DNA from: Bacilli bacterium
Lineage (GTDB): Bacteria > Bacillota_I > Bacilli_A > RF39 > UBA660
Assembly: GCA_022798795.1 (NCBI GenBank)
Contig: JAAWNF010000005.1
Coordinates: 1 to 40,548, forward strand
Reading direction: 5' to 3'
Length of the DNA stretch: 40,548 nt
Made by a program: the position numbers and the translations under genes. Under the pieces are notes generated by a model. The model was not told the origin of the DNA. It was given only the letters and a program-made list of their open reading frames with translations, and did not search any database. Shown here in pieces: positions 1,070 through 6,911 of the stretch. Each line of letters starts with the position of its first letter. The first letter of the stretch is position 1.

Positions 1070-1333
1070 TTACTCCATAGCATTAACTTTTTTTGTTAAT
1101 CTTGATTTATTACGAGCACAAGTATTTGATGCAACAACACCTTTAGAAGCTGCCTTGTCAATTCTCTTAATAGCAGTTTTCAAATTTTCTGTTGCTTTTT
1201 CTTTGTTATTTTCATTTACTGCTTTTTCTACATTTTTAATAGCAGTTCTCATACTTGCTTTGTATTCATTATTTCCTACTTTTTGTTTTGCGATTTGTTT
1301 TACTTTTTTCTTCGCATTTTTCATGTTTGGCAT
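1070..1333 (-). CDS. rpsT: 30S ribosomal protein S20
   Basis: An 87-residue basic protein beginning MPNMKNAKKKVKQ with the SMRTAIKNVEKAV and LKTAIKRIDKAASKGV helices typical of S20, a primary 16S rRNA binder of the small subunit. Length matches the family (about 85-90). The start at 1333 is set by AGAGGTGG 8 nt upstream; an earlier in-frame codon adds seven residues with no site of its own. It has its own promoter and is divergent from gpr. Confidence 0.95.
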   Translation of the reverse strand: MPNMKNAKKKVKQIAKQKVGNNEYKASMRTAIKNVEKAVNENNKEKATENLKTAIKRIDKAASKGVVASNTCARNKSRLTKKVNAME

Positions 1334-1368
1334 AGTTTCACCACCTCTCAGCAAACTCAGTACTTATA

Positions 1369-1397
1369 ATTTTAACGCATAATCTTAAAAAAAGCAA
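1369..1397 (-). promoter_or_regulatory. Probable promoter of rpsT
   Basis: On the minus strand, TTGCTT (1392-1397) and TAAAAT (1369-1374) are separated by 17 bp, about 36 bp upstream of the rpsT start. It lies in the short divergent gap shared with gpr. Confidence 0.5.
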
Positions 1398-1439
1398 TAA
1401 AATAATGAATTTTCGGGAAAAATATGTATGGGTGATAAG

Positions 1440-2471
1440 ATGAAACATGAAGTGGATTTAAAAAATTATACAATTCGTACAGATTTGGCACTTGAATCAA
1501 TAGAGAATAATAGTATTGAAAAGGTAAAACAGGAATTTGAAACGATAAATGAAGTTAAAGTCACAACAACATACTTGGATGAACAGAATGGAAAAAAAAT
1601 AGCTAAAAAATCAGGAATTTATATTACTATTGAATTTGAAGATGTTACAGACCATGATAATTTATTAAATGTAAAAGAAATTTTTTCAAATAAATTAAAA
1701 TTTATATTAGAAAAGGAGCACATTAAAGAAAATGACATGGGATTAATTATTGGTTTAGGAAATGAAAATTCTACTCCTGATGCCTTAGGACCTTTAACAA
1801 TAGATAAAATTATTGTAACAAATCCACTTTATTTGTATGGAGAACTAGAAGAAGGATATCGAAGAGTGTGTGCAATTAGTCCTGGAGTTACTGGTGAAAC
1901 AGGAATAGAAACAAGTGATTTTATTAAATATATGATTGATTGTGTAAAACCACAATTTGTAATTGTAATAGATGCTTTGGCGAGTGGTTCTATTGAAAGA
2001 GTCAATCGAACAATACAAATGACAGATACAGGAATAGCACCTGGTAGTGGTATAGGAAACAAAAGAAAAGAAGTGAGCAAAGAGTTGTATGGAATTCCTG
2101 TTATTGCAATTGGAATTCCAACAGTAGTAGATGCGATTACTATTGTAGCAGATACAATAAAGTATATGCAAAAGCAATATACATATTCAAAGCAGAATCA
2201 TAATCAACCAAAGAATAAACTTATCCTTTCTTATCAATCAAATTATTTGAAAGCAAAGATAGAAGAAAATAAAGAAGATAATAAACAATTATTAGGACTT
2301 GTTGGCGGATTAGATGATGTTGAAATTAAACAGTTATTATTTGAGGTATTAACACCTATTGGCTATAATTTTATGGTGACTCCGAAAGAAGTTGATTTTG
2401 TTATGGAAAAATTGAGTGAGGTAATTGGAGAGGGCATTAATCTTGCATTGCATAAAGCAATAAAAGATTGA
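1440..2471 (+). CDS. gpr: Germination protease (GPR endopeptidase)
   Basis: A 343-residue spore protease of family A25. GPR is made as a zymogen in the forespore and degrades small acid-soluble spore proteins at germination. The N-terminus MKHEVDLKNYTIRTDLALE contains the conserved (I/V)RTDLA motif around the propeptide cleavage region. The core motifs GLGNENSTPDALGP, SPGVTGETGIET, VIDALAS and GIAPGSGIGNKR are intact. The start at 1440 follows GGGTGATAAG; an in-frame ATG 12 nt upstream lacks a site. It heads a tightly spaced run of genes to 5893. It is strong evidence that the source organism forms endospores. Confidence 0.95.
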   Translation: MKHEVDLKNYTIRTDLALESIENNSIEKVKQEFETINEVKVTTTYLDEQNGKKIAKKSGIYITIEFEDVTDHDNLLNVKEIFSNKLKFILEKEHIKENDMGLIIGLGNENSTPDALGPLTIDKIIVTNPLYLYGELEEGYRRVCAISPGVTGETGIETSDFIKYMIDCVKPQFVIVIDALASGSIERVNRTIQMTDTGIAPGSGIGNKRKEVSKELYGIPVIAIGIPTVVDAITIVADTIKYMQKQYTYSKQNHNQPKNKLILSYQSNYLKAKIEENKEDNKQLLGLVGGLDDVEIKQLLFEVLTPIGYNFMVTPKEVDFVMEKLSEVIGEGINLALHKAIKD

Positions 2472-2524
2472 CTTATGTTTGTTTTGTGATAGAATATATT
2501 TTTAATAAAGAGGCGATGATTAGT

Positions 2525-3313
2525 GTGGAAAAATTTTTATATGATATTTTAAATGAAACAGAAAAAGCATCTATTAAGCATACAGAATTTATTAGTACTA
2601 TAATATTAACTGAATTAGAACAAACAATGCATTTTTCTTTTGAACATCGTAAAATTATTACTCCAACAGCTTTTATGGTTTCGCTATTGACTGATGTAAA
2701 TTTTTCATGTCGATTTTTATTAATTCAATTGTTAGAAAAATATCATGTAAATGAAAGAGATTTGTTGTTATATTTAACAACCAATTTGTATTCTTTAACA
2801 CCTGGGACAATAGAAGAAAAAAATCATATTGCAACATTATTATCTTTGCCTTATATTGAAACAATTTCCTCAGAAAAAAATTGCTATATTATAAGGACAA
2901 AATATGGGACAATAGAAATGCAGGTTTTAGAGGATTGGTTAAAAAAACATAAAATTTGTTTTGAACCAAAAAAATTTAATGGATTTTGTCATTATGCTGT
3001 AGAAAGCTTAGCACCATTATTGCCTGATGATTATATTACTACTAGTGAATTTTCTAATTTATTTGGTGGAATTTATTATCATTCTTACTATACATTGAAA
3101 AAAGGTGGAGTAATAGACCCTGCTCGAAATCTTTTTTATCCTGGAACTTGTTTTGAAGAAATTTTTAAACCGAATGTATTATTGCAATATCCTGCTTCTG
3201 AGTTACAAGAAAGATATCAAAACTATTTAAAAACGGCTACTCAAAAGGATTTAAATCTTTTGGATTCAGTATGTGCATTAGCAATGGAACAAAAAAGGAA
3301 AGTGTTAAAATGA
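2525..3313 (+). CDS. Unrecognised protein with possible Cys/His/Asp active site, paralogue 1
   Basis: A 262-residue protein I cannot assign to a named family. Its C-terminal half has Cys155-His156 (FNGFCHYAVESLAP), His186 (GGIYYHSYYTL) and Asp198 (GGVIDPARN) in the order and spacing of papain-fold or transglutaminase-like enzymes; this is an inference from pattern only. The N-terminal half is helical and leucine-rich with no motif I know. It shares this architecture with the genes at 4411 and 5174. The GTG start at 2525 follows AGAGGCGAT by 7 nt; ATG 2516 sits too close to that site. It is 53 bp after gpr, and its stop overlaps the next start by 4 nt, suggesting translational coupling. Confidence 0.7.
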   Translation: MEKFLYDILNETEKASIKHTEFISTIILTELEQTMHFSFEHRKIITPTAFMVSLLTDVNFSCRFLLIQLLEKYHVNERDLLLYLTTNLYSLTPGTIEEKNHIATLLSLPYIETISSEKNCYIIRTKYGTIEMQVLEDWLKKHKICFEPKKFNGFCHYAVESLAPLLPDDYITTSEFSNLFGGIYYHSYYTLKKGGVIDPARNLFYPGTCFEEIFKPNVLLQYPASELQERYQNYLKTATQKDLNLLDSVCALAMEQKRKVLK

Positions 3314-4407
3314 GAGGAAAAGTTTATGTAGTAACAGATGGACAAGCTGGCTCATGTGGTAAAGGAAAACTATCTGGTTACCTTGCCAGAAAATTAGATG
3401 TAGATGTAACAATCAATCATAATATGCCAAATGCTGGACATACATTTGTTTATGATGATGGCAGAAAGATAGTAACCCATCATTTACCAATTGGAGTAGT
3501 AAATCCAAGAACAACATTATTAATAGGAGCAGGAGCTGTTATTAACCCTGATATTTTATACAAAGAGTTAGAAGAAAACAAAGATTTAATCAATGGAAGA
3601 ATGATTTATATTCATGAACGAGCTGCTGTTGTTTTTGATAAACATATTGCCTTTGAAAGAGAAAATATTCGCTCTGGAAGTACTTTTCAAGGTTCTGCAG
3701 CAGCAAATGCAGAAAAAGCGCTTCGAATTCCAGGTACTATTTTAGCAAAAGATTATCCTTGGAAAGGTAAAATATATATCTATGATGATAATTTCTTTTT
3801 TAGACTTAGAAACAATGGTCTTTCAGTACTCATTGAAATGAGTCAAGGATTTGACTTAGATATTAATCATGGGCTTCCATACCCTTATACAACAAGTAGG
3901 GGTTGTACAATTACAGATGCCTTAGCTGATTGTGGAATTCCTTATAATGATGATATTACATCTTATATGGTATTTCGCCCATATCCAATTCGAATCAGTA
4001 ATGATTCTGTGGAAGGTAAAATTTATACGGGTGATTATGCTGGGAGTAGAGAGATTTCTTGGGAAGAAGTTTGCGAGAGAGCGGGCTTAGATTATACAGA
4101 GGAGTATACAACAGTTACTAAAAAAAGGAGAAGAGTGTTTGAGTTTAGTTGGAGTAGATTTTATAATGCGATAGAAGCAAATAATCCTGATTATTTGATT
4201 CTTAATTTTGCACAATATCTAGATGGAACAATTTTAGAAAGTACTAATGTAGAGCAAGTTGTAAATTCTTCTTCTGTTATGGGGATGTGCACGACTATCA
4301 AAACTTTATATGATAAAGATGTTATTATGATAGGAACAGGTGCCAAAGAAAGTGAAATAATTGATTTTTCAAATCAAAAAGGAAAAGTTTATGTAAAAAG
4401 GAGTTAA
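3310..4407 (+). CDS. Adenylosuccinate synthetase-family protein, PurZ-like
   Basis: A 365-residue member of the PurA superfamily, shorter than ordinary PurA (about 430). The P-loop reads GQAGSCGKGK (residues 11-20) where PurA has GxQWGDEGKGK, so the catalytic Asp is replaced by Ser15. NAGHT with His44, HHLPIG, LIGAGAV, SQGFDLDINHG, TTSRG and KKRRR correspond to PurA motifs in order. The nucleotide-binding loop is altered (RSGSTFQGSAAANAEKALR) and the TKLDVLDG base-binding motif is replaced by NFAQYLDG. As I recall, phage PurZ, which condenses Asp with dGMP for 2-aminoadenine DNA, also carries this Asp-to-Ser change. No other Z-genome gene is nearby, so the substrate is open. The start at 3310 follows AAGGAAAG and overlaps the previous stop. 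Confidence 0.75.
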   Translation: MRGKVYVVTDGQAGSCGKGKLSGYLARKLDVDVTINHNMPNAGHTFVYDDGRKIVTHHLPIGVVNPRTTLLIGAGAVINPDILYKELEENKDLINGRMIYIHERAAVVFDKHIAFERENIRSGSTFQGSAAANAEKALRIPGTILAKDYPWKGKIYIYDDNFFFRLRNNGLSVLIEMSQGFDLDINHGLPYPYTTSRGCTITDALADCGIPYNDDITSYMVFRPYPIRISNDSVEGKIYTGDYAGSREISWEEVCERAGLDYTEEYTTVTKKRRRVFEFSWSRFYNAIEANNPDYLILNFAQYLDGTILESTNVEQVVNSSSVMGMCTTIKTLYDKDVIMIGTGAKESEIIDFSNQKGKVYVKRS

Positions 4408-4410
4408 TTT

Positions 4411-5190
4411 ATGAGTCTTTTAAATCAGATACTTCAGGAAAATGAGACCATATTTGTAGAACAGGATAGAATGATTTGTGAAAAAATATTAAGAGAATTA
4501 GAAATCATTTATCAAATTCCTTTTCTAGGGTTTCATGGTCGGTCAAACGTCATGATGATTCTTTCTTTTTTTTAACTTTCTGGAAATGAAAATTTTAGAA
4601 ATACAGTATTTCATTTCATGGAAAAGTATTCTTTGAATAAGCGAGCATTTTTAAATCATTTAATTAGTGAAATTTATCCCCCAGATTATTTGGAACATCT
4701 AAGAGCTTTACCAAATTGTTTGGCACTAAGTCAGGAACCAGACCATTATAGGCTTAAAACATCCTTTGGAACGCTAAAATTATATCGTTTAACTGATATG
4801 ATTTCCTTTCAAAATGTTCAATACGTTTTACAAACAGAAGATATGCATGGAAAATGTCATACAGTTGTGGAAGCTGTTGCACCTTATTTTCCAAATGCTT
4901 TGATTACAACAAGTAAACTAGGAACATTATTTGGTGGAACCTATTATCATTCTTATATGACTTTAGAAGATGGAAGTGGAGTGATGGATTTTTCTAGGAA
5001 TACTTTTTTTAAGGATACCTGTTTTGAAGATGTGTTTAGGCCAGAAGTTATATTACAATATAAAGCAAGTGAATTAAAAGAGCGTTTTTTAGAATTTCAA
5101 AGAAATAATTCAGACCTTGTGAATGGATTTTATCCAGTTTTACAGTTGGCACTGAAAGAAGAGGTAGAAAGAAATGGAAAAAATATATAA
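4411..5190 (+). pseudogene. Paralogue 2 of the Cys/His/Asp family, interrupted by an in-frame TAA
   Basis: An ATG at 4411 with a good site (AAAAGGAGT) opens a frame matching the N-terminal half of the 2525 gene. It stops at TAA 4573-4575 after a run of T. The same frame resumes at once (LSGNENFRNTVFHFMEKY) and continues to 5190 with the family's C-terminal domain, including Cys-His (GKCHTVVEAVAP), His (GGTYYHSYMTL) and Asp (GVMDFSRN). Both parts share one frame, so a nonsense change fits better than an indel. The internal ATG at 4618 has no ribosome binding site, so independent expression of the C-terminal part is doubtful. Confidence 0.7.
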
Positions 5191-5893
5191 AAGTAAAAAA
5201 CAAGAATCAGAATATTGGCAATATTATAATGAAATGCATGCTGGAAAGTTTCTTTCTTTTGTTCAAGAAATAATGGGAGAATCTGTTTACTATGGAGAGT
5301 CTAGAACTTCTTTGGAACGTGTTTCTTATTTGCTTGAGCATTTGAAGGGAGATGCATTAATTAATACAATTTCTTTTTATTTTCAAGAATATTCGATAGA
5401 GGAAAAGGGAATCATACTAACTTTACTTCAGATACTTTCAAAATATCCATATGGTAATAGTACTGCTTCCATGATGGAGGCATATAAAAAATTGCCAATG
5501 ATTGAAGATGTTTGTCCAAAAACACACGGTGTTGAAATAAAAACGACAAGTGGTGTGATTACAGTTTATCGTGCTATGGAAGCTTTAACTAAGCAAAGTG
5601 GTACTTTAAGAAGTTACCAAGCAATTAAAAAGTCTGATGTTTCTTTAAGGAAGATACTTTTAAATTCTCGTTTTATAGAGGATACTGTCATTAGTTGTCT
5701 TATGCCTAGAATGTTTGGTGGATTTTCTTATGAATATTATATAAAACTAATAAAAGAGAATGGATATTTGGATTTGAGACGTAATTGTTTTTATTCAAAA
5801 AGTGACTTTGAGGAATATTTTAATCCAAAGATTTTAATGAGAAGAAAAGGGAAGAATTTAAAAACAGATATTCCCCCTTTATTTAAAAAATAA
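5174..5893 (+). CDS. Paralogue 3 of the same family, active-site residues lost
   Basis: A 239-residue protein with the same overall plan as the 2525 and 4411 genes. In the aligned positions Cys-His is replaced by Ile168-Glu169 (SRFIEDTVIS) and the second His by Glu187 (FGGFSYEYYIKL), while Asp200 in GYLDLRRN is kept. If the family is enzymatic, this copy should be inactive and may be regulatory or structural. The start overlaps the end of paralogue 2 by 17 nt and follows GAGGTAGAAAG. It is the last gene of the run from gpr, closed by a terminator. Confidence 0.65.
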   Translation: MEKIYKSKKQESEYWQYYNEMHAGKFLSFVQEIMGESVYYGESRTSLERVSYLLEHLKGDALINTISFYFQEYSIEEKGIILTLLQILSKYPYGNSTASMMEAYKKLPMIEDVCPKTHGVEIKTTSGVITVYRAMEALTKQSGTLRSYQAIKKSDVSLRKILLNSRFIEDTVISCLMPRMFGGFSYEYYIKLIKENGYLDLRRNCFYSKSDFEEYFNPKILMRRKGKNLKTDIPPLFKK

Positions 5894-5922
5894 AAATCCG
5901 ATAGAAATATAGGATTTTTTTT
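5892..5922 (+). terminator. Rho-independent terminator of the gpr-to-5893 operon
   Basis: AAAAATCC (5892-5899) pairs with GGATTTTT (5912-5919) around a 12-nt loop and runs into T residues, directly at the stop codon of paralogue 3. Confidence 0.7.
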
Positions 5923-5939
5923 GTTATATAGTTGTTTCA

Positions 5940-5969
5940 TTGTAGTACTATCTAAAAACATGTTATAAT
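5940..5969 (+). promoter_or_regulatory. Promoter of nfo
   Basis: TTGTAG (5940-5945), an 18-bp spacer, and TATAAT (5964-5969) preceded by TG-T, giving an extended -10. It lies 24 bp upstream of the nfo start. Confidence 0.55.
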
Positions 5970-5993
5970 AAAGAAAGAATTGGAGTGGTCATG

Positions 5994-6911
5994 ATGGAAG
6001 AATTATACATTGGTTCTCATGTTTCTTTTAAAAGAGAGGAACAGTTATTAGGGTCGGTGGTAGAAGCTTTATCATATGGGGCAAACACTTTTATGTTTTA
6101 TACAGGAGCACCGCAAAATACAGCAAGAGCAAGTATTGACTTAGAACTTACCTCTTTGGCTCATAAATTAATGCAAGAAAAAAATATAGATATTAAAAAG
6201 GTAGTAGTTCATGCACCTTATATTATTAATTTGGCAAATGATAATGAGAAATATGAATTTGCCATTCGCTTTTTAAAAGAGGAAATTGCTAGAGTAGAAA
6301 TGTTGGGAGTAGAACTTCTTGTTTTGCATCCTGGAAGTCATGTTGGATTAGGTTGTGAAAAGGGAATTGAAAATATAGTTAGAGCTTTGAATACTGTTGT
6401 TGACAGTAAAACTAATGTAAAAATATGTTTAGAAACGATGGCAGGAAAGGGAAGTGAATGTGGAAAAACATTTGAAGAAATTTCTCTTATTTTAAAAGGA
6501 GTTCGTTATCCAGATAAAATTGGAGTTTGTCTAGATACTTGTCATATTCATGACGCTGGATATTGTTTACATAATTTTGAAGAGATATTAACACAATTTG
6601 ACAATACAATAGGATTATCTAAATTATGGGTTTTGCATATGAACGATAGCAAAAATGAAGAAGGTAGTCATAAAGACAGACATGAAAATTTTGGGTTTGG
6701 GCATATTGGTTTTGAAAACTTAATGAATATAATGAATCATCCAAAATTAAAAGGAATTCCTAAAATATTAGAAACTCCTTATATTAGTGATACAGATAAT
6801 TGTAAAGAAAAGATTTATCCGCCTTATAAATTTGAAATAGAAATGATTAAAAATCAAAAATTGAATCATAATTTAATAGAAGATATTAGAAATTATTATA
6901 GAAAAGCTTGA
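5994..6911 (+). CDS. nfo: Endonuclease IV (apurinic/apyrimidinic endonuclease)
   Basis: A 305-residue Zn-dependent AP endonuclease of base excision repair with the TIM-barrel metal-ligand motifs in order: GSHVS, VHAPY, LHPGSHVG, LETMAGKG, CLDTCHIHDAGY, LHMNDSK, DRHENFGFGHIG and ILETPY. Length is slightly above the family's usual 280-300. The start at 5994 lies 8 nt after GGAG; ATG 5991 is also possible. It has its own promoter. Its 3' end overlaps the convergent gene by 16 nt. Confidence 0.93.
   Translation: MEELYIGSHVSFKREEQLLGSVVEALSYGANTFMFYTGAPQNTARASIDLELTSLAHKLMQEKNIDIKKVVVHAPYIINLANDNEKYEFAIRFLKEEIARVEMLGVELLVLHPGSHVGLGCEKGIENIVRALNTVVDSKTNVKICLETMAGKGSECGKTFEEISLILKGVRYPDKIGVCLDTCHIHDAGYCLHNFEEILTQFDNTIGLSKLWVLHMNDSKNEEGSHKDRHENFGFGHIGFENLMNIMNHPKLKGIPKILETPYISDTDNCKEKIYPPYKFEIEMIKNQKLNHNLIEDIRNYYRKA

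Follow-up and report, generated by a model that had tools for sequence, protein, structure and literature searches.

A putative cell-encoded sister branch of phage PurZ on a bacterial chromosome

The PurZ group has so far been described essentially from phages. According to the accessible part of a 2026 survey (PMC12884076), this group comprises 147 phage sequences, all of which carry Ser, together with four archaeal sequences carrying Ser or Gly, the prokaryotic sample of 298 sequences otherwise consisting mostly of PurA with Asp13, and that part of the survey describes no bacterial PurZ members. For the enzyme of phage S-2L, the available portion of the structural work (PMC8342488) reports that Val241 and the insertion that follows it help to exclude the ribose 2'-OH, and that the S-2L triad is toxic in E. 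coli. In a search of the open-access literature by title and abstract, none of the papers listed (40 of the 209 that contain the word, in one case) describes a PurZ encoded on a bacterial chromosome. The DNA analysed here (the window) is a stretch of 40,548 nucleotides from a Bacilli bacterium of the RF39 lineage (assembly GCA_022798795.1, contig JAAWNF010000005.1), corresponding to contig C20 of a source genome of 1.36 Mb in 91 contigs that is 97.7% complete and 4.98% contaminated. A previous reading of this stretch, made without database searches (the sequence-only reading), had singled out a gene at positions 3310-4407 of the forward strand as a chromosomal PurA paralogue with the Asp-to-Ser change of PurZ.

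Translation of this open reading frame confirms a protein of 365 residues whose N-terminal region reads DGQAGSCGKGK, with the PurA P-loop GDEGKGK replaced by GSCGKGK (residues 14-20; 3349-3369, forward strand). Alignment columns place Ser15 at the position of the catalytic Asp13 of PurA, which is absent, so that the claimed substitution is real, and the claimed loss of the TKLD segment is likewise borne out, the protein reading LNFAQYLD with Gln in a column that is Asp in all ten PurA rows; the chromosomal location is also supported. The protein matches Pfam PF00709 (2.7e-31) and PHROG 1211, annotated as 2-aminooxy adenylosuccinate synthetase (8.8e-67), and in the PDB its sequence comes closest to phiVC8 PurZ (2.7e-46) and S-2L PurZ (3.4e-44), with all PurA ranking behind. 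An AlphaFold2 model built with 18 relatives (pLDDT 82.9) has S-2L PurZ (7odx, 1.1e-27) as its best match, followed by phiVC8 PurZ, the PurA of Pyrococcus horikoshii (5k7x, 3.8e-25) and PurZ0. On the curated NCBIfam profiles, the protein (P0001) scores 212.3 bits against PurZ (NF038379), below the model cut-off of 300 bits, and falls far under the cut-offs of the PurA models (149 of 368 bits and lower). The product clearly belongs to the PurA/PurZ family and is not an ordinary PurA.

Relatives of this protein are found in two bacterial classes, Bacilli and Clostridia. Scanning GTDB contigs gave 16 loci, namely those of the same-genus genomes G001 and G002 (84-89% identity) and 14 from 13 Clostridia genomes (46-48%), and a PF00709 search over 98 relatives added longer forms of 454-458 aa with GSCGKA/GK in G004, G008 and G047 as well as a split copy in G031. 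Ser at the PurA Asp13 position, followed by Cys, is seen in every one of the 17 clade rows that have a residue there, while the eighteenth, a Clostridia copy (L060), has Ser and then TGA at the Cys codon (L060:2223-2225). In the part of that genome covered (61 pieces, about 724 kb, with roughly a quarter of the genome outside), TGA ends 17 of 309 long open reading frames and none of 27 tRNAs has a TCA anticodon; selenocysteine is less likely here than a nonsense mutation or an error in the sequence. Since 17 of the 18 clade rows have Ser-Cys, the remaining one has Ser before its TGA, and the Nei-Gojobori dN/dS of the three same-genus copies is 0.085-0.106, chance is excluded as an origin of this P-loop. 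Comparable ratios were obtained for the Clostridia copies (0.065-0.112 in nine of ten pairs, one being saturated) and somewhat higher ones for the 454-458-aa forms (0.16-0.17); among the same-genus copies of the neighbouring genes, gpr gives 0.056-0.071 and X1 and X3, described below, give 0.18-0.34. Like gpr nearby, the PurZ-type gene evolves under purifying selection.

Two trees, drawn from a chosen sample without archaeal Ser/Gly sequences, give the same picture (supports are ultrafast bootstrap/SH-aLRT). All 18 bacterial rows of a 48-row tree fall into a single clade (98/94) whose sister is a group of seven phage PurZ (joint node 92/90); the gene of Bacillus phage vB_BpsS-140 branches outside this pair, and beyond it lie PurZ0, the genes from rhizobial plasmids, P. 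horikoshii and PurA. In a 42-row tree, in which three IMG/VR sequences were included and near-copies thinned, the clade receives 95/92 and the joint node 99/96. In both, the window protein lies outside the phage PurZ clade, as sister to it, and groups with PurZ rather than PurA. As the protein scores under the curated cut-off, is without the conserved Val discussed below and falls outside the phage clade itself, the gene is best described, on sequence grounds, as representing a new branch in bacteria that is sister to PurZ, rather than PurZ proper. The border between the two clades is not firm, since the AU test does not reject a topology with a jumbo-phage PurZ (L168) among the bacterial rows (p-AU 0.215). 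That gene lies on a 371-kb viral contig (L168, 5995-7122) and encodes GSCGKGL, so that a Ser-Cys P-loop occurs in a virus too. Patterns of the window protein gave no matches among viral contigs, and alignment then found three; protein P0002 gave no phage match.

These data bear directly on the possibility that the gene is a captured phage purZ that plays no present part in the cell. The nearest outside clade is indeed phage PurZ, the viral contig just mentioned carries a closely similar P-loop and the copy in G031 is split, all of which would suit such an origin; on the other hand, selection acts on the gene at nearly the level seen for gpr, the clade covers two bacterial classes and the neighbours of the gene in the window include no phage gene, which makes this account quite improbable. 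Among the viral sequences themselves, two contigs of uncultivated viruses (L169:5182-6857 and L170:5983-7646) carry PurZ followed by a kinase-like gene, with a weak adenylate-kinase match in L169, and the basal PurZ-like gene of vB_BpsS-140 (L084:5962-7083) reads GSEGKGK, with no DatZ- or MazZ-like gene annotated in the surrounding 13 kb.

The nucleotide pocket was compared by mapping the residues named for S-2L PurZ, in the part of PMC8342488 available, onto alignment columns. Most of the dGMP pocket, aspartate loop and adenine site is retained: Gly14, Ser15, Asn41, Ala42, Gly43, His44, Thr45, Gly123, Ser124, Thr125, Arg139, Gln179, Tyr193, Thr195, Arg228, Thr267, Thr270, Arg274, Asn299, Phe300 and Gln302. 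These include the tip of the aspartate loop, TTVT (residues 267-270; 4108-4119, forward strand), and the adenine-site segment NFAQ (residues 299-302; 4204-4215, forward strand), which stands in place of the TKxD type of PurA. The mapping also brings out three changes, however, namely Tyr21 to Ala13, Cys204 to Thr194 and Val241 to Ile229. This third position, encoded at 3994-3996 (forward strand), lies next to the ribose 2' carbon; each of the 18 clade rows has Ile there, against Val in all seven phage PurZ and all ten PurA rows, which suggests that substrate choice may differ; the PurZ-type loop insertion after this residue is present in the window protein and in the clade. Insertion and larger residue together would be compatible with a deoxynucleotide. 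At the TKxD-type guanine contact, Gln302, as in S-2L, takes the place of an Asp found in 10/10 PurA rows and points to ATP as the phosphate donor.

The proposal that the enzyme may make a different purine-aspartate product is upheld as the best chemical reading. It is probable that aspartate is joined to a guanine-type nucleotide, and a preference for the deoxy form appears evenly balanced. ATP would phosphorylate O6 of the guanine nucleotide, which is most likely dGMP; displacement of the O6 phosphate by aspartate would then give an N6-succino-2-amino-(deoxy)adenylate.

What could become of such a product depends on the purine genes of the carriers, that is, of 19 genomes comprising G000, G001, G002, G004, G008, G047 and the 13 Clostridia. 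An ordinary PurA was found in none of them, and a search of the source genome for a normal purA elsewhere yielded nothing of full length, for which reason the term paralogue was mistaken: there is no resident full PurA. On contig C25 of that genome (L046:2223-4767) lies a PurA-like N-terminal piece of only 92 aa, in a row with a weakly matching deoxyribosyltransferase-like gene, a PnuC-type transporter and a protein with weak similarity to Zn-dependent phospholipase C. A lyase of the PurB type (PF00206) was missing from 18 of the 19 carriers, the source genome included, G100 alone having some lyase of this Pfam family, and PurC was found in 0 of the 16 carriers tested; the same PurC search applied to four non-carriers was positive in G044 and G068 and negative in G003 and G012. 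Most genomes of the source's bacterial family (f1) have neither PurA nor the Ser-type form. In the Clostridia family a full-length PurA match was obtained in 9 of 247 genomes, none of the nine with the Ser-type form, and at such low counts the missing overlap proves nothing; gene absences in the Clostridia MAGs also carry less weight because their completeness is not given. By gene content, the carriers look like purine-salvage organisms, with no known PurB at hand to cleave the succino-product. A search of open-access literature on purine auxotrophy in RF39 returned nothing.

The sequence-only reading had held that a genome without any other purA would imply a housekeeping role, and the premise proved correct while the inference fails, as the purB and purC types are missing, a sister species does without the cassette and the protein groups with PurZ. 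The idea that this is the lineage's own enzyme for converting IMP to adenylosuccinate, with an altered catalytic residue, can indeed invoke the absence of another full PurA from all 19 carriers, but it has to accommodate Ser for Asp, NFAQ for TKxD, the near-absence of PurB and absence of PurC just given, the sister species G003, which has no such gene, and the many f1 genomes with neither form. A housekeeping PurA was consequently rejected on the pocket changes, the missing purB and purC types and the empty site of G003, and is the least likely of the readings.

This empty site becomes apparent from the arrangement of the locus, in which all genes lie on the forward strand. The germination protease gene gpr (1428-2471; PF03418, 6.9e-110) is followed by X1 (2516-3313; 265 aa), whose stop overlaps the start of the PurZ-type gene (ATGA), by X2 (4411-5190) and X3 (5174-5893), and by an nfo-type AP endonuclease gene (5985-6911; PF01261, 1.4e-51). 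The head-to-tail order X1, PurZ-type gene, X2, X3 between gpr and the endonuclease is the same in G001 and G002. In the sister species G003, gpr (88% identity) is separated from the AP endonuclease gene (nfo) by about 410 bp only, in G004 it is followed by an X3-like gene alone, and in G008 unrelated genes occupy the gap, from which it follows that the cassette is accessory. A spore-gene-headed operon had been proposed; gpr does lie upstream, but the link was overstated, gpr being the flank of a variable site, and as a promoter and terminator scan of 1300-6100 did no better than shuffled sequence (31 promoters versus 26; 2 terminators versus 1.4), the operon limits are unproven. DatZ-, MazZ- or DpoZ-like partners were, as had been stated, absent among the genes examined next to the window gene. 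Three members of one family do flank it, as also noted before, but the middle one, X2, is interrupted by an in-frame TAA (4573-4575) and readable from 4618 as 190 aa. X2 is intact only in G001; this stop in the window and a frame change in the G002 copy (L039:844-1624) are independent disruptions.

The X proteins match no Pfam family over the cut-off and have no convincing PHROG or NCBIfam match. Over residues 134-228, a model of X1 (pLDDT 89.4) resembles papain-like proteases with a best Z of 5.2, in a range that the tool VIA calls common, and Foldseek found no match to it in the PDB at E 0.001. A Cys158-His189-Asp201 triad is kept in 27 of the 31 X-family rows that span the sites, its Cys and His having been lost in X3 of three species, the window's own included, and in the G004 copy. 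The model suggests that X1-X3 may constitute a separate papain-like family. X genes occur in 43 of 386 genomes of the source's bacterial family, mostly elsewhere and without a PurZ-type neighbour, often in tandem (in G001, for instance, behind a gene for a signal peptidase), and BLAST clustering of neighbourhoods detected none near the Clostridia copies; X genes as general partners of the enzyme were rejected on this distribution. This papain-like family without a database match (L129:7192-7944, L130, L123, L131, L119 and others) extends over 29 of 150 genera of the source's bacterial family, often as tandem pairs.

The main rival reading builds on these neighbours and regards the enzyme as biosynthetic: a succino-purine nucleotide or a related aspartate adduct, processed or attached by the X proteins, would be built into a compound that is secreted or serves in signalling. 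The overlap of X1 with the gene start and the tight order of X2 and X3 behind it in three species would fit, as would the protease-like C-terminal domain of X1, and a folE-purA-purB row with a short Asp-type PurA on a plasmid of R. leguminosarum indicates that PurA relatives do join accessory clusters. Against this reading stand the Clostridia copies with no X gene nearby, the broken X2 in two of three species, the loss of Cys and His from X3 and a cassette that holds neither transporter nor tailoring gene, and we regard a biosynthetic role as unlikely.

Nucleotide poisoning or defence is retained as the leading guess, and the surroundings of the relatives offer some hints in this direction. 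A DUF1848 gene lies 24 bp upstream of the PurZ-type gene in G047, where a gene resembling type II restriction endonucleases lies downstream, and 0.56-0.85 kb downstream of it at three syntenic Clostridia loci; PADLOC has a model for the DUF1848 family, RTasDUF1848. At L061, a DUF4011-helicase-REase_MTES_1575 protein is encoded about 1.7 kb upstream, and in G004 and G008 a Ppx/GppA-family gene lies just upstream, the remaining neighbours being ordinary (NusG, DAP epimerase, an RF-1-type release factor and others). A neighbour at L051 was considered as a NADAR protein and rejected, its Pfam family being Phage_30_3. The PADLOC scan covered 52 proteins hand-picked from the loci, without a background control, and PADLOC-DB gave no match for the window protein, X1, X2 or X3. 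Most of the f1 genomes searched have one copy of DUF1848, which in five of the six f1 carriers lies away from the PurZ-type gene, and open-access literature on it returned nothing. These neighbours hint at surroundings that are mobile and in part defensive, but no more than that, DUF1848 having been chosen post hoc and being common in the source's family but usually not adjacent.

Taken together, the observations are read here as a cell-encoded enzyme of the PurZ branch that makes an end product, with conditional consumption of dGMP and formation of an unusable or toxic nucleotide as the best guess, a reading that we infer for substrate, product and role alike and hold with a little less than even confidence. 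As the host is without a PurB-type lyase, the phage route to 2-aminoadenine is closed to the product, which is expected to go no further, and the role is guessed to be conditional because the gene sits in an accessory cassette. The enzyme would consume dGMP and yield an unusable or toxic nucleotide, for instance when phage infection releases dNMPs; a defensive or poisoning role as such is plausible but less likely than not. Slightly less likely again is the fullest version, in which purine-auxotrophic gut bacteria would deliberately convert dGMP to a succino-2-aminopurine nucleotide and be unable to process it further, whether in response to phage or stress, with DNA synthesis left short of dGMP and a poisonous nucleotide remaining, or as a new nucleotide signal. 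If true, phage PurZ and the cellular branch would put one reaction to two uses, building and blocking phage DNA. With a conserved branch in bacteria that have no PurB, PurZ chemistry is set apart from Z-DNA, and the question arises of what a succino-2-aminopurine nucleotide does in the cell; in practical terms, a Ser-type purA match in a genome or MAG is proof of neither a prophage nor AMP synthesis.

Several plasmid loci of rhizobia and Methylobacterium deserve mention in their own right. PurZ-like proteins with GSEGKG and an N-terminal kinase-like fusion are encoded at L135:4449-6741, L136:3449-5741, L139:452-2745, L150 and L138; in the first three the fusion is followed by a small gene (DUF7002 in L135), a 182-aa gene lies nearby in L135 and L136 (with a sub-threshold YfbR-like HD match in L135), and L135 also has a dCTP deaminase-like gene. 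These fusion loci are a candidate plasmid-borne nucleotide system. On Sinorhizobium medicae plasmid pMl5 (L137:3995-6057), a Ser-type PurZ-like gene precedes a weak dCTP deaminase-like match, and the Rhizobium leguminosarum row mentioned above, on plasmid p3 (L140:363-2846), consists of folE, a short Asp-type purA (GDEAKGK) and purB and looks like an accessory biosynthetic cluster.

Compared with known systems, the window protein resembles the archaeal short PurA of Pyrococcus horikoshii in length and fold, but the latter retains Asp and falls outside the Ser group. The Ser-type genes of rhizobial plasmids are likewise bacterial and have Ser for Asp, but carry GSEGKG, are mostly fused to the kinase-like domain and form a separate clade. 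PurZ0 of actinobacterial phages also has Ser for Asp, yet differs in its GSEAKG P-loop, in the Asp and Thr-Met of its nucleotide-base site and in having no loop insertion, and it too forms a clade of its own. Closest is PurZ of phiVC8, S-2L, ZP6 and relatives, from which the window gene is set apart by its place on a bacterial chromosome without DatZ, MazZ or DpoZ neighbours, in a host without a PurB-type lyase, by Ile for Val at the ribose position and by Cys for Thr after the Ser, and with which it shares Ser for Asp, nearly all pocket residues, the TTVT aspartate loop, an Asn-Phe-x-Gln/Asn adenine site, the loop insertion and a sister position in the trees.
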